Positions 3,362-26,708 of a DNA stretch of 40,022 bases are shown here, piece after piece. The position numbers were made by a program, and so were the translations under genes. The notes beneath the pieces were generated by a model that was not told the origin of the DNA, searched no databases, and saw only the letters and a list, made by a program, of their open reading frames with translations. Every line of letters starts with the position of its first letter. Within the stretch, counting starts at the first letter, position 1. The stretch spans positions 1 through 40,022 of the forward strand of contig JALSHU010000049.1 of NCBI GenBank assembly GCA_026982075.1, read 5' to 3'. Source of the DNA: Sulfurovum sp. GTDB taxonomy: Bacteria; Campylobacterota; Campylobacteria; Campylobacterales; Sulfurovaceae.

Positions 3362-3438
3362 TGGTAGTAAGAGGGGGACTCGAACCCCCGACCTCCGGCT
3401 TATGAGACCAGCGCTCTAACCGGCTGAGCTACCTTACC
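3362..3438 (-). tRNA. tRNA-Met (anticodon CAT)
   Basis: A 77-base tRNA with all arms visible on the minus strand. The acceptor 5' strand GGTAAGG pairs with TCTTACT (two G-U pairs), the D arm is GCTC...GAGC, and the anticodon loop CTCATAA sits in the CTGGT/GCCGG stem. The T arm is GGGGG-TTCGAGT-CCCCC, the discriminator is A, and the CCA is encoded. Position 1 pairs, unlike the unpaired first base of bacterial initiator tRNA, and the anticodon stem lacks the three G-C pairs of initiators. It is therefore an elongator-type tRNA. A CAT anticodon could also be tRNA-Ile2 after lysidine modification, and sequence alone does not exclude this. Confidence 0.93.
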
Positions 3439-22820: not shown

Positions 22821-22852
22821 CATTCACATGAATCTAACATTTAATGTGAATG
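22821..22852 (+). repeat. Inverted repeat in the plsY leader
   Basis: CATTCACAT (22821-22829) and ATGTGAATG (22844-22852) are perfect complements, with a 14-base loop, within the predicted plsY leader. No U tract follows, so this is not an obvious terminator. It may be an operator or an RNA hairpin. Confidence 0.5.
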
Positions 22853-22918
22853 CGCAAAGTCATTTTAAGATCTAAGCTATCAGTTAGTTACAGTATAAAT
22901 TTTAATTGTGGATTTATT

Positions 22919-23542
22919 ATGGACTTATTAACAAATCAAAATATTTTACTCTATTTGGCAGCATACTTGATTGCCAGTATCCCCTTTGGTTATCTTCTTG
23001 CTAAACAATTTGCAGGTGTAGATATCAAACAAGAAGGTTCGGGTAATATTGGTGCCACCAATGTTTTACGTGTTGTAAAGGAACATAACCCAAAACTTGC
23101 TAAAAAGTTGGGTGCGGTAACCCTCCTCTTAGATGCCATCAAAGGAATCTTAGTCATTCTTGTTGCAAAGTTGCTCGGTGCTCCTGAAGGTGTAATGTGG
23201 ACAATAGCTGTTCTTGCTGTCATTGGGCATTGTTTTTCTGCCTTTTTATTTTTTGAAGGCGGCAAAGGTGTAGCCACAGGCTTTGGTGTCCTTTTAGTGA
23301 TGATGCCTTTAGCAGCTATCATTGCCATAATTGTGTGGTTAGGTGCAGCCAAAGGTTTAAAAATATCCTCACTCTCATCCCTTATTGGCCTTGTTGCATT
23401 TATTATTGCTTCTTATGTTATCTACCCTGAGGTTCCAGGAATTGAATCACATGCACCAATATGGATTATTTCGATTATTATCTTTTACAAACATATCCCA
23501 AATCTTGTAAGAATTTTTAAAAAAGAAGAAGGCAAAGTGTAA
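22919..23542 (+). CDS. plsY: Acyl-phosphate glycerol-3-phosphate acyltransferase PlsY
   Basis: A 207-residue integral membrane enzyme that makes lysophosphatidic acid from acyl-phosphate and glycerol-3-phosphate, the first acylation of phospholipid synthesis. It shows the PlsY signatures SIPFGYLLAK (about residues 20-29), GSGNIGATNVLRV (about 40-52), HCFSAFLFFEGGKGVATGFGVLL and five to seven hydrophobic helices. I chose the ATG at 22919. An upstream in-frame ATG at 22850 would add a polar 23-residue head not seen in the family and lies in the inverted repeat. folB begins three bases after its stop. Confidence 0.95.
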   Translation: MDLLTNQNILLYLAAYLIASIPFGYLLAKQFAGVDIKQEGSGNIGATNVLRVVKEHNPKLAKKLGAVTLLLDAIKGILVILVAKLLGAPEGVMWTIAVLAVIGHCFSAFLFFEGGKGVATGFGVLLVMMPLAAIIAIIVWLGAAKGLKISSLSSLIGLVAFIIASYVIYPEVPGIESHAPIWIISIIIFYKHIPNLVRIFKKEEGKV

Positions 23543-23545
23543 TTT

Positions 23546-23878
23546 ATGACTATACATATAGAAGCACTAACCTTTGATGTCATTATTGGGTTGCTTGATT
23601 TTGAACGAGAAAAACAACAACAGATTATTATTGACCTTACTGCTTCATATGATTATAGTAATGAACAATTTATTGACTATGCAGATATGTCATTTTTGAT
23701 TCAAAATGAACTTAAATCAAAACGATATAAGCTACTAGAAGAAGCTCTTCTTGGTCTAAAAACGCTACTTTTCATCACCTACCCCCAAATTAAAACCCTT
23801 ACTTTGAAAATTTCAAAACCACACATCTTAGAAAATTCTTGTGTAGCACTAAGTCACACTTGGGATTTTCAAAAATAA
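23546..23878 (+). CDS. folB: Dihydroneopterin aldolase FolB
   Basis: A 110-residue enzyme of folate synthesis that cleaves dihydroneopterin to the hydroxymethyl pterin. It opens IHIEALTFDVIIGLLDFEREK, the FolB strand with the substrate-binding Glu (GLLDFER), then has a central acidic region (YADMSFLIQ) and LTLKISKPHIL with the catalytic-type Lys (about residue 89). The length is typical (about 115-120). Its conservation is modest, so the related epimerase activity cannot be excluded. It is cotranscribed with plsY. Confidence 0.88.
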   Translation: MTIHIEALTFDVIIGLLDFEREKQQQIIIDLTASYDYSNEQFIDYADMSFLIQNELKSKRYKLLEEALLGLKTLLFITYPQIKTLTLKISKPHILENSCVALSHTWDFQK

Positions 23879-23925
23879 ATTACCCCGTATATCTTTTAAA
23901 AAAACTTTCAGAAAACTTCTTTTTA

Positions 23926-23934
23926 TGCTATAAT
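23926..23934 (+). promoter_or_regulatory. Extended -10 promoter of hsrA with overlapping palindrome
   Basis: TGC-TATAAT (23926-23934) is a perfect extended -10, and a start near 23941 is expected. A perfect 7-1-7 palindrome, TTAAGAA-A-TTCTTAA (23934-23948), covers the start point, and a further TTAAG lies at 23956-23960, 22 bases from the first. Repressor or autoregulator binding here is plausible. Confidence 0.58.
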
Positions 23935-23975
23935 TAAGAAATTCTTAACTTTAGATTAAGTTTATAGTTGATGAC

Positions 23976-24047
23976 GTACTTGTATGCATTTAAAAGGCAT
24001 ATGTAAGTACTGTTTAGTGTGTATATTACATGAATCATGTTATATAC
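23976..24047 (+). promoter_or_regulatory. Structured hsrA leader with two inverted repeats
   Basis: The first hairpin has arms 23976-23987 and 23997-24010: GTACTT and TATGC pair with GCATA and AAGTAC around a small internal loop. The second has arms GTATATTACATG (24021-24032) and CATGTTATATAC (24036-24047), 11 of 12 pairs with a three-base loop. Together they fill most of the leader up to about 30 bases before the hsrA ATG. I know no described leader family that they match. Confidence 0.55.
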
Positions 24048-24077
24048 TGTTTTAGAAAATAAAAAAGGTGTTCCTTT

Positions 24078-24752
24078 ATGAGAGTATTAGTCATTGAAAA
24101 TGATGTAGAACTTGGTAAAATTATTGTTGATAAATTACATGCATCAGAGTACCAGTGTGATCTTGCAGAAAATTTTGGAGATGCTAAATATTATCTTGAC
24201 ATTAGAAATTATGATTTAGTTTTGCTAGGCTGGGAACATTCAAGTCATATAGATATCTCCCTTGTTACAGATATAAAAAAAGATGTTAACGCTGCATCTG
24301 TTATAGTTCTCTCCAGTCGGACGGATAAAGAAAGTGAGATAGAAGCCCTCAAGAGTGGTGCTGATGACTTTATCAGAAAACCCCTTGATTATGACATTTT
24401 GCTTGTTCGTATTGAGGCTAAATTGCGTTTTGGGGCTTCTAATATCATAGAGATTGATGAACTTATTATCAACCCTGAAGAAGAAAAAATTATCTACCAG
24501 GGAGAAGAAATAGAACTTAAAGGTAAGCCATTTGAGGTACTTACCCATTTGGCGATGCACAAAGACCAAATTGTATCAAAAGAACAACTTCTTGATGCCA
24601 TATGGGAAGAGCCCGAACTTGTTACTCCTAATGTCATTGAAGTAGCTATCAATCAAATTCGTCAAAAAATGGATAAACCTTTGGATATCTCTACAATTGA
24701 AACGGTCAGAAGACGAGGATATAGATTTTGTTTTCCAAAAAAAATAAGCTAG
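24078..24752 (+). CDS. hsrA: Orphan OmpR-type response regulator HsrA
   Basis: A 224-residue regulator homologous to Helicobacter HP1043 (HsrA) and its Campylobacter counterpart, an essential orphan regulator of growth and stress genes. A receiver fold (residues 1-115) is joined to a winged-helix DNA-binding domain (about 122-222). The latter shows LKGKPFEVLTHLAMHKDQI, SKEQLLDAIWEEPELVTPNVIEVAINQIRQKMDKPL and TVRRRGYRFCFPK, nearly identical to HP1043 as I remember it. The phosphoacceptor position is Gly-51 (DLVLLGWEH) instead of Asp, and the acidic pocket is reduced (IEND). It should therefore act without phosphorylation. No histidine kinase is adjacent. The ATG at 24078 is preceded by a GGTG-type weak Shine-Dalgarno. 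Confidence 0.94.
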   Translation: MRVLVIENDVELGKIIVDKLHASEYQCDLAENFGDAKYYLDIRNYDLVLLGWEHSSHIDISLVTDIKKDVNAASVIVLSSRTDKESEIEALKSGADDFIRKPLDYDILLVRIEAKLRFGASNIIEIDELIINPEEEKIIYQGEEIELKGKPFEVLTHLAMHKDQIVSKEQLLDAIWEEPELVTPNVIEVAINQIRQKMDKPLDISTIETVRRRGYRFCFPKKIS

Positions 24753-24841
24753 TTTACATCTTACCAACCATGTAACTGGAAGCAGTGATGTATCAAGTTT
24801 CTTAGAAAACATGTAAAATCTTCTATTTCCTTTACTTTTAA

Positions 24842-24920: not shown

Positions 24921-25175
24921 ATGGCATTAATAATCACTGATGAATGTATTGCATGTGATGCATGTAGGGAAGAATGTCCCAATGAGGCAATAGAAGAAAA
25001 TGATCCGATTTATCTTATTGATCCAGATATCTGTACAGAATGTGTAGGTCACTTCGACGAACCACAATGTATATCAGTCTGTCCTGTAGACTGTATAGTT
25101 CCAGATCCAGATAATGTTGAAAATGTTGAAGAACTCATGTTCAAATATAATAAACTTCAAAAAGAACTGGAATAA
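24921..25175 (+). CDS. YfhL-type 4Fe-4S dicluster ferredoxin
   Basis: An 84-residue low-potential electron carrier. The first cluster motif is CIACDACREECP (CxxCxxxC with following CP, residues about 11-22). The second is CTECVGHFDEPQCISVCP, with the eight-residue insertion between the second and third Cys that defines the YfhL/Allochromatium-type ferredoxins. A short helical tail (VEELMFKYNKLQKELE) follows. It is very acidic, as expected for redox carriers. The Ppx/GppA gene starts six bases after its stop. H. pylori fdxA-like proteins are of this type and are important for growth, so an essential role is plausible. Confidence 0.94.
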   Translation: MALIITDECIACDACREECPNEAIEENDPIYLIDPDICTECVGHFDEPQCISVCPVDCIVPDPDNVENVEELMFKYNKLQKELE

Positions 25176-25181
25176 TCTAGT

Positions 25182-26708
25182 ATGGCAAAGCGAACCGCTG
25201 TCATCGATATCGGTTCTAACTCTGCAAGACTTGTTATATTTGAAAAAACAAGTCGTTACGGCTTTCATCTACTATGTGAGCAAAAATCTAAAGTACGTAT
25301 TGGTGAAGGAGCTTATGAAAAAAATGGCTATCTTCAACCTATTGCTATACGACGTGCTTTTTTAACACTTAAATCTTTTCTTCATACTATAGATAAATAT
25401 CAAGCAAATAAAACCCTTTGTGTTGCAACTTCTGCACTTAGAGATGCACCTAATGGCAAAGAATTTACTCAGTGGATTAAGCAGGAACTTGGTCTCTCCA
25501 TTAAAATAATAAATGGACAAAAAGAAGCCTCCTTTGGTGCTATCGCTGCTGTTAATTTGCTTCCTGTCACTGATGGTATAACTATTGATATTGGCGGAGG
25601 CTCCTCTGATATTGCACTTTTGAAAAATGGACGTATCGTTGATACCTATTCACTAAACCTAGGTACAGTAAGACTGAAAGAATTATTTTTCGATAAAGCA
25701 TCTGGTACTGATACTAGCAATAAAGAGGCTATTAGATATATACAAAAAGAACTTATGGGGCTCCCTAAGCATTTTAAACACACTTTAGCCATAGGTATAG
25801 GTGGTACAGCTAGAACCCTTTCAAAGGGCATTATGAAGCAGTCTTCCTATGAATTAGATAAACTGCATGCTTTTTCTTATAATATCAAAGAGCATCGTGA
25901 CTATCTTGATGCTATTCCTCTTTCTAGTGCTAAGAATCTTACGCATTTTGGATTAAAGAAAAGCCGCTTTGATACGATTAGAGAAGGCACACTTATTTTT
26001 ACACAAATACTTGTACATATCCATGCTAAAACTGTAATTTCTTCTTCCGTTGGTGTAAGAGAAGGCGTGTTTTTAGAACAACTTCTAAGAGATGATAAGC
26101 AAAAATTTCCACATACTATTAATCCAAGTATGGTATCAATATTGGATCGATTTAAACCTTTGGTCAAAATCGAAAAAAAACGTAAAGCAAAACTTAAACT
26201 GGCTTCCACACTCTATGCTGTTTTTGACACATGTATCAAAGATACCACCTCTTATGAAAATGAGTTACTCTGTGCATTACAGCTATCGGCGATTGGGAAA
26301 ACGCTTACTATATATAAATCACATCAGCATGCGTTTTATATCACTATGCAAGAATTAAACTATGGGTTTACCCATAAGCAAATCCTTTTGATATCTCTAC
26401 TGCTTCGCATGCATGGAAAAGAGCTCATTAGTAGATCTCTTTTTGACCAATATGAGACCTTGCTTCCTCCTAAGGAAACATTACGATGGTTAAGTTTTAT
26501 CTATAGCCTTACTGTATTTTTACATGAAGCCTCAAACTCTGCGACTATCACATTTTCTTTCAAAAATAAAATACTACTTATCACATCTAATAAACCTCTA
26601 TATCTTGCAAAAGAAAAAATAAAATCCTTGGAAAAACCTCTGCCTTTTGCAATTATTATTGAGGATGAAAGTTTTTTACCTAAAAATAAAGCACTAGGCA
26701 TACATTAG
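25182..26708 (+). CDS. Ppx/GppA family phosphatase
   Basis: A 508-residue exopolyphosphatase or pppGpp pyrophosphatase of the ASKHA fold. It shows AVIDIGSNSARLVIFE (residues 5-20), TSALRDAPNG, TIDIGGGSSDIALL (the second phosphate loop) and IGGTARTLSKG. A C-terminal helical HD-like region (about 310-430) follows. The family has members acting on polyphosphate, pppGpp or both, and the two activities cannot be separated from sequence. Campylobacterota usually carry two Ppx/GppA genes as I recall; only one is in this window. It is in an operon with the ferredoxin and converges on bamA 31 bases away. Confidence 0.92.
   Translation: MAKRTAVIDIGSNSARLVIFEKTSRYGFHLLCEQKSKVRIGEGAYEKNGYLQPIAIRRAFLTLKSFLHTIDKYQANKTLCVATSALRDAPNGKEFTQWIKQELGLSIKIINGQKEASFGAIAAVNLLPVTDGITIDIGGGSSDIALLKNGRIVDTYSLNLGTVRLKELFFDKASGTDTSNKEAIRYIQKELMGLPKHFKHTLAIGIGGTARTLSKGIMKQSSYELDKLHAFSYNIKEHRDYLDAIPLSSAKNLTHFGLKKSRFDTIREGTLIFTQILVHIHAKTVISSSVGVREGVFLEQLLRDDKQKFPHTINPSMVSILDRFKPLVKIEKKRKAKLKLASTLYAVFDTCIKDTTSYENELLCALQLSAIGKTLTIYKSHQHAFYITMQELNYGFTHKQILLISLLLRMHGKELISRSLFDQYETLLPPKETLRWLSFIYSLTVFLHEASNSATITFSFKNKILLITSNKPLYLAKEKIKSLEKPLPFAIIIEDESFLPKNKALGIH

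Follow-up and report, generated by a model that had tools for sequence, protein, structure and literature searches.

A TTAA repeat with 11-bp phasing directly behind the -10 element of Sulfurovum hsrA/cosR promoters as a probable site of autoregulation

The atypical response regulators HsrA (HP1043) of Helicobacter pylori and CosR of Campylobacter jejuni are described as essential for growth, and the amount of HsrA reportedly could not be modulated in H. pylori. Published accounts give the HP1043 site as two hexamers separated by a 5-bp spacer (ttTAAG-5bp-tTTAAg), readable as a direct or as an inverted repeat, the latter form being seen at Php1227 (TTTAAG-5bp-CTTAAA). In these accounts, the sites mapped in H. 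pylori directly precede the -10 element, HP1043 binds its own promoter with the repeat on the non-coding strand, and R192, K197, T206 and R208 are the residues contacting DNA (PMC5253667, PMC8345958). CosR was crystallised on DNA carrying two half-sites five bases apart (PMC10936212, PMC3139631). Its reported effects are repression at sodB, where the site directly follows the -10, and activation at ahpC, where one site spans -37 to -17 and the other +1 to +21 (PMC3139631, PMC10936212). For ArsR, another H. pylori response regulator, negative autoregulation was judged to act through a site downstream of the gene's own start point (PMC9696931). Among open-licence papers, we found none dealing with Sulfurovum together with CosR, and none of the matches listed dealt with Sulfurovum together with HsrA.

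The locus analysed here lies in a 40,022-nt stretch of Sulfurovum sp. DNA (the window), where an hsrA/cosR orthologue follows plsY and folB and precedes a ferredoxin gene (Table 1). Its product carries the Pfam domains Response_reg and Trans_reg_C and matches C. jejuni CosR in the structure 8uvx (CosR-DNA1) over its full length (E = 3.4e-97), as well as HP1043 in the structure 2hqr (E = 6.5e-79; full length, 222 residues). Judged by this similarity over the whole length, with a receiver and a winged-helix output domain, the protein is an HsrA/CosR response regulator. The equivalents of the four HP1043 contact residues are at positions 195, 200, 209 and 211, and these were invariant in all 105 distinct orthologues, the window protein included. 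One assembly (G057) has two hsrA genes, L004 on contig C114 and L113 on contig C220, with products 92% and 81% identical to the window's; the pair could represent a second copy or a mixed bin.

Table 1. Features of the hsrA locus in the window.
Feature	Position	Strand	Remarks
plsY	22850-23542		Upstream of folB; Pfam and NCBIfam
folB	23546-23878		Between plsY and hsrA; Pfam and NCBIfam
A-rich block TTTTAAAAAAACTTTCAGAAAA	23894-23915	+	Conserved upstream of the -10 (column frequencies, 75 genus leaders)
Extended -10 TGC TATAAT, TGCTATAAT	23926-23934	+	Promoter scan, 10/12 matches
Putative HsrA operator TTAAGAAATTCTTAA	23934-23948	+	Perfect 15-nt palindrome; TTAA half-sites at 23934 and 23945
5' leader	23941-24077	+	137 nt; putative start about 7 nt after the -10
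Third TTAAG	23956-23960	+	22 nt on; in phase with the second TTAA, 11 bp further
Hairpin 1, imperfect	23976-24010	+	Has a bulge; seen in folds; here and in L002 only, refolded there
Hairpin 2	24021-24047	+	Near-perfect palindrome; 13-nt arms, 92% complementary, 1-nt gap
Probable Shine-Dalgarno AAGG	24065-24068	+	Read from the sequence
hsrA/cosR orthologue	24078-24752	+	Atypical OmpR/PhoB-type response regulator; Gly at phospho-acceptor position 51
YfhL-type ferredoxin	24921-25175		Follows hsrA; Pfam and NCBIfam
Ppx/GppA phosphatase	25182-26708		Follows the ferredoxin gene; Pfam and NCBIfam

An initial annotation of the window had described an extended -10, a perfect palindrome over the start point, a further TTAAG 22 bases on and two long inverted repeats. 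All of these are present, the second inverted repeat being recovered in a repeat listing and the first, with its bulge, in the folds, while the 137-base leader it described keeps that length provided that transcription starts at the putative position 7 nt behind the -10. The first T of the palindrome is also the last T of the -10. The TTAA cores begin at 23934, 23945 and 23956, that is, at two successive steps of 11 bp, and this triple phasing is lineage-specific, being found in only 4 of 75 genus leaders (the window's, L001, with L002, L003 and L028). The site, aTTAAG-AAATT-CTTAAc, has the two half-sites and 5-bp spacer (11-bp period) of an HP1043-type operator, with a match that covers the TTAA core only, the hexamers being degenerate. 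It does not have the HP1043-type position immediately upstream of the -10, since its first half-site shares the last T of that element. The word TTAAG-N5-CTTAA occurs at two places in the 1.64-Mb assembly, here and within an open reading frame no shorter than 548 aa.

Across the genus, 78 genomes were searched and yielded 76 hsrA loci including the gene start, or 75 distinct leaders after merging one identical pair (L145). No leader was obtained from G017 and G062, which had no close match, or from G071, which had a fragment lacking the start; G057 contributed two. Of the 75 leaders, 74 (73 with a looser -10 finder, which misplaces the -10 of L115) have a TTAA-N7-TTAA pair (11 bp apart) that directly follows the extended -10, the sole exception being L022, where the second half reads CTTAGA. 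Aligned on the -10, these 74 leaders have their first TTAA 5 to 8 nt from its first base. Shuffled leaders with such a pair numbered 0.48 on average and 4 at most. Not one leader had a downstream pair at spacings of 5 to 10 or 12 to 15, and spacings of 16, 17, 18 and 19 were found in 1, 7, 2 and 1 leaders, respectively. The T and the G of the extended -10 were present in 100% of the 75 aligned leaders, although the same motif had served to locate the -10. In contrast to the pair, the perfect palindrome occurs in only 9 of the 75, indicating that the repeat with its 11-bp phasing is kept and the palindrome is not; in the window species, the half-sites happen to be mirror images.

Positions 23888 to 23992 (105 nt, comprising the promoter, the operator and the early leader) are identical between the window's leader and L002, while third codon positions differ at 37 of 224 in hsrA, 17 of 111 in folB and 36 of 205 in plsY. 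At 16% divergence, a run of 105 identical bases would arise with a probability of about 1e-8, and the promoter and early leader are thus constrained. The distance from the -10 to the start codon has a median of 35 nt in the genus and exceeds 60 nt in 15 of the 75 leaders; the window's, at 143 nt, is the longest, shared with L002. Five related Sulfurovum species (L030, L114, L115, L118 and L122) have a different long hsrA leader, extending 109 to 111 nt after the -10; these leaders are similar in sequence, and their folding does not exceed that of shuffles.

Autoregulation of hsrA through the conserved repeat, as predicted from these comparisons, is well supported. The initial annotation had pointed to TTAAG-like repeats in the HsrA sites of H. 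pylori and had regarded autoregulation as fitting. The link agrees with the published TTTAAG-5bp-TTTAAG (PMC5253667, PMC8345958), and the autoregulation reading gains from the binding of HP1043 to its own promoter in H. pylori and from a matching element at the hsrA promoter throughout the genus. We consider it probable that an HsrA dimer acts on the TTAA pair of its own promoter, most likely as negative feedback, with the two hairpins of the leader as a fast-changing spacer. RNA polymerase would use the extended -10, and the dimer would bind the two TTAA half-sites, one helical turn apart. Bound there, it would cover the end of the -10 and the putative start point, most likely hindering initiation, and this would keep HsrA at a set level. 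The hairpins would then be a rapidly changing insert in a lineage with unusually long leaders. The regulator and the putative operator are of a known kind, in a position that the open-licence literature examined does not describe for the regulator's own gene.

Each of the described systems resembles this arrangement in part. The H. pylori system, in which HP1043/HsrA binds its own promoter, shares the orthologous regulator, the two half-sites with their 5-bp spacer, the extended -10 and the conserved contact residues. However, the sites mapped there immediately precede the -10, and the Sulfurovum repeat directly follows it, so the Sulfurovum position is not the one proven there. For CosR, sites downstream of the -10 (sodB) or at +1 to +21 (ahpC) are described with half-sites five bases apart, but these belong to other target genes, with no such site mentioned for cosR itself. 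ArsR, a different regulator with its own partner kinase, ArsS, is a response regulator whose site lies downstream of the start point and which is judged to act there as a repressor of its own gene.

As the activation of ahpC with a site at +1 to +21 illustrates, the position of a site does not fix the sign of regulation. In another reading, the repeat would be an HsrA site used for self-activation, with or without a contribution from the upstream A-rich block, much as CosR activates ahpC. We take this reading seriously and still find it unlikely. It draws on the conservation of the A-rich block and on the description of HP1043 as an activator at Php1227 (PMC5253667, PMC8345958). Relative to the -10, that block stands where other families have their upstream repeat (by-eye comparison), and it is possibly what is left of an HsrA site in that position, or else an UP-like element. 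A recognisable upstream pair is nevertheless rare in Sulfurovum: the loose form, T[TAG]AA twice at 11 bp, was found in 11 of the 75 leaders (shuffles: mean 3.2, maximum 9) and the strict TTAA form in 8. Moreover, a protein bound at the start point usually hinders initiation, as reported at sodB, which favours repression.

Quite unlikely, in our view, is that the TTAA pair is a feature of the promoter as such (a discriminator or start-region sequence) or the site of another regulator. The pair is AT-rich, its place behind the -10 hardly varies, and the combination of -10 and repeat is also found before other genes, all of which would suit such an origin. Yet the exact 11-bp spacing and the variable middle bases suit a dimer spanning one helical turn, and the repeat both fits the published HsrA site and precedes hsrA itself. 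Within the 78 genomes, the -10-plus-repeat pattern gave 162 matches (79 forward and 83 reverse) against 33 (18 and 15) for the reversed control; promoters in which the final T of the -10 also belongs to the repeat, such as the window's, escape this pattern. A search of the window's own genome with TTTAAG-N5-TTTAAG, allowing one mismatch, was uninformative (35 sites against 30 in the reversed control).

Several of the matches lie before recognisable genes. Four other Sulfurovum genomes (L279, L280, L281 and L298) have TATAAT followed by a TTAAG-N6-TTAA repeat about 38 nt before a membrane protein that resembles, by eye, the PglB/STT3 oligosaccharyltransferase, and this is a candidate further HsrA target. 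Around a TTAA repeat, L285, L286 and L287 (and L288) have two overlapping, divergent -10-like sequences that together form a palindrome; in three genomes, this arrangement precedes a gene whose product resembles a TolC-type outer-membrane protein. The combination also precedes a SurA/PEB4-like protein (L282, L283 and L284), a ribosomal L21-like protein (L292 and L293) and a MerR-like regulator (L294 and L295), all named by eye and each in two or three genomes.

The two hairpins had been proposed in the initial annotation as an RNA element or a small RNA, and this found no support: they were found in only two carriers, fold close to chance and match nothing in Rfam. Searched against the 78 genomes, the hairpin block matched its own genome (6.6e-45) and G026 (1.7e-29), the rest being short matches at 0.006 or weaker. 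The hairpins are present in L002, from the sister species, whose protein is 98% identical to the window's, and both are missing from the next relative, L003 (95% identity), whose leader is 72 nt shorter. Their absence from an orthologous leader was itself one of the outcomes named beforehand as counting against the proposal. The window's leader and L002 differ at 10 of 53 nt in the hairpin block (23993-24045), which is about the third-codon-position rate, so the block is not constrained at the sequence level.

A functional RNA element (a regulatory leader or small RNA) confined to two species is, on balance, very unlikely. In its favour, both hairpin-forming sequences persist in L002 despite the 10 differences, with similar folding energies (-28.5 in L001 and -28.1 in L002), and z reached -2.27 in L001 and -1.89 in L002 with the operator included. 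However, random placement of the same changes kept as much energy in 19 to 21% of trials (two carrier sequences), and leaving out the operator brought z to -0.72 in L001 (95 of 400 shuffles as good) and to -1.07 in L002. With other boundaries, z in L001 was -1.71 (10 of 200 shuffles as good) or -1.66 (13 of 200), compared with 7 of 300 for the value of -2.27. Among the other long leaders, only L005 reached a z of -2, in one of two tests. Without gaps, hairpin 1 scores 6 within its 47-nt stretch, the value that shuffled whole leaders most often reach as their best, and hairpin 2 as a palindrome alone is mildly unusual for the leader (5 of 400 shuffles as good). Overall, the hairpins are not clearly above chance. 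At gathering thresholds, Rfam gave only a tRNA (3365-3438) in the whole window and no match at the hairpins, and no terminator-like site was found in 23500-24800. That hairpin 2 serves as a DNA operator for some other regulator deserves hardly any weight: 12 of its 13 positions are complementary around a 1-nt centre, as is rare among the shuffled leaders, but the palindrome is broken in L002 by substitutions and a deletion. Long leaders of the same clade also seemed to have a word like AAGTACTT in common; the best shared palindromic 8-mer was TTTTAAAA, and because equally strong sharing was common in shuffles, this candidate was discarded. Most likely, the hairpins are an unconserved spacer.

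Two further features of the leader were noticed. An ATG...TAA frame of 11 codons (23971-24006) overlies hairpin 1, with no clear ribosome-binding site; the matching ATG opens short frames of 9 codons in L002 and 7 in L003 (by eye), and the frame could be due to chance. The segment AAAGG-TGTT-CCTTT (24064-24077) could form a stem that covers the probable ribosome-binding site just before the ATG, and the same pairing is predicted in L002.

The position of the repeat was compared with that in 47 hsrA leaders from 33 genera and 11 other families (48 before L313, at a contig end, was dropped; L171 was left out), in which some -10 assignments are guesses. Of the 47, 39 have a T[TAG]AA pair at a spacing of 11 bp just upstream of the -10, where shuffles of 48 leaders gave a mean of 4.1 and a maximum of 10, and 2 have a TTAA pair downstream of the -10. 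The loose upstream word was also found at spacings of 10 (28 leaders) and 12 (27 leaders), indicating that the upstream phasing is less sharp than the downstream one. The strict TTAA pair was found upstream in 16 of the 47 at a spacing of 11, and none of the other spacings between 6 and 17 gave more than 2. The leader L203, whose protein begins like HP1043 in 2hqr, reads CTTAAA-CTAAT-TTAAAT just upstream of the -10, in agreement with the literature.

Nearer to the genus, 30 further loci from outside the genus set (with titles such as Sulfurovum, Nitratifractor, Sulfurovaceae and Campylobacteraceae) included 20 with the downstream pair. The 10 without it fall in one well-supported clade (the L111 protein being identical to that of another row), and all 11 leaders of this clade, which mostly lacks the downstream pair, have the loose upstream pair. 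In the other two named genera of the same family (f1), the downstream pair is present in 3 of 3 leaders. The leaders of family f4, with a loose upstream pair in 5 of 6, hint that the upstream position may be the older. The tree, drawn without L051 and L171, was rooted for drawing only, so that which position is older cannot be said from it.

The regulator itself has also changed in Sulfurovum. The phospho-acceptor Asp51 is replaced in the window protein and lost in 52 of 58 distinct proteins grouped with Sulfurovum by identity rank, not each checked in a taxonomy (Gly in 28, Ser in 15, Ala in 8 and Asn in 1). Asp51 is retained by all 21 other loci of the group that have the downstream pair, by 10 of 10 from the clade mostly without that pair and by 12 of 16 from other families. 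Since it is kept in loci with the downstream pair, acceptor loss and site position are separate changes. The same residue is reported to be lost in thermotolerant Campylobacter (PMC3938529), and the loss in Sulfurovum looks independent of that one. A phosphorylation-free regulator would suit negative feedback.

The predominance of the downstream repeat in Sulfurovaceae suggests a changed mode of self-control in this family, probably repression. We tentatively envisage, as an account that falls somewhat short of probable, that the self-site in Sulfurovaceae came to lie over the start point, turning self-activation into self-repression, and that in Sulfurovum the regulator also mostly lost the phospho-acceptor, leaving the activity of the regulator to be set by its concentration alone. 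How HsrA controls itself matters because, by the accounts cited for H. pylori, the protein is essential and its amount resists modulation. The dozens of natural promoters in which the repeat lies upstream or downstream according to family would offer a direct test of whether position alone flips self-activation to self-repression.
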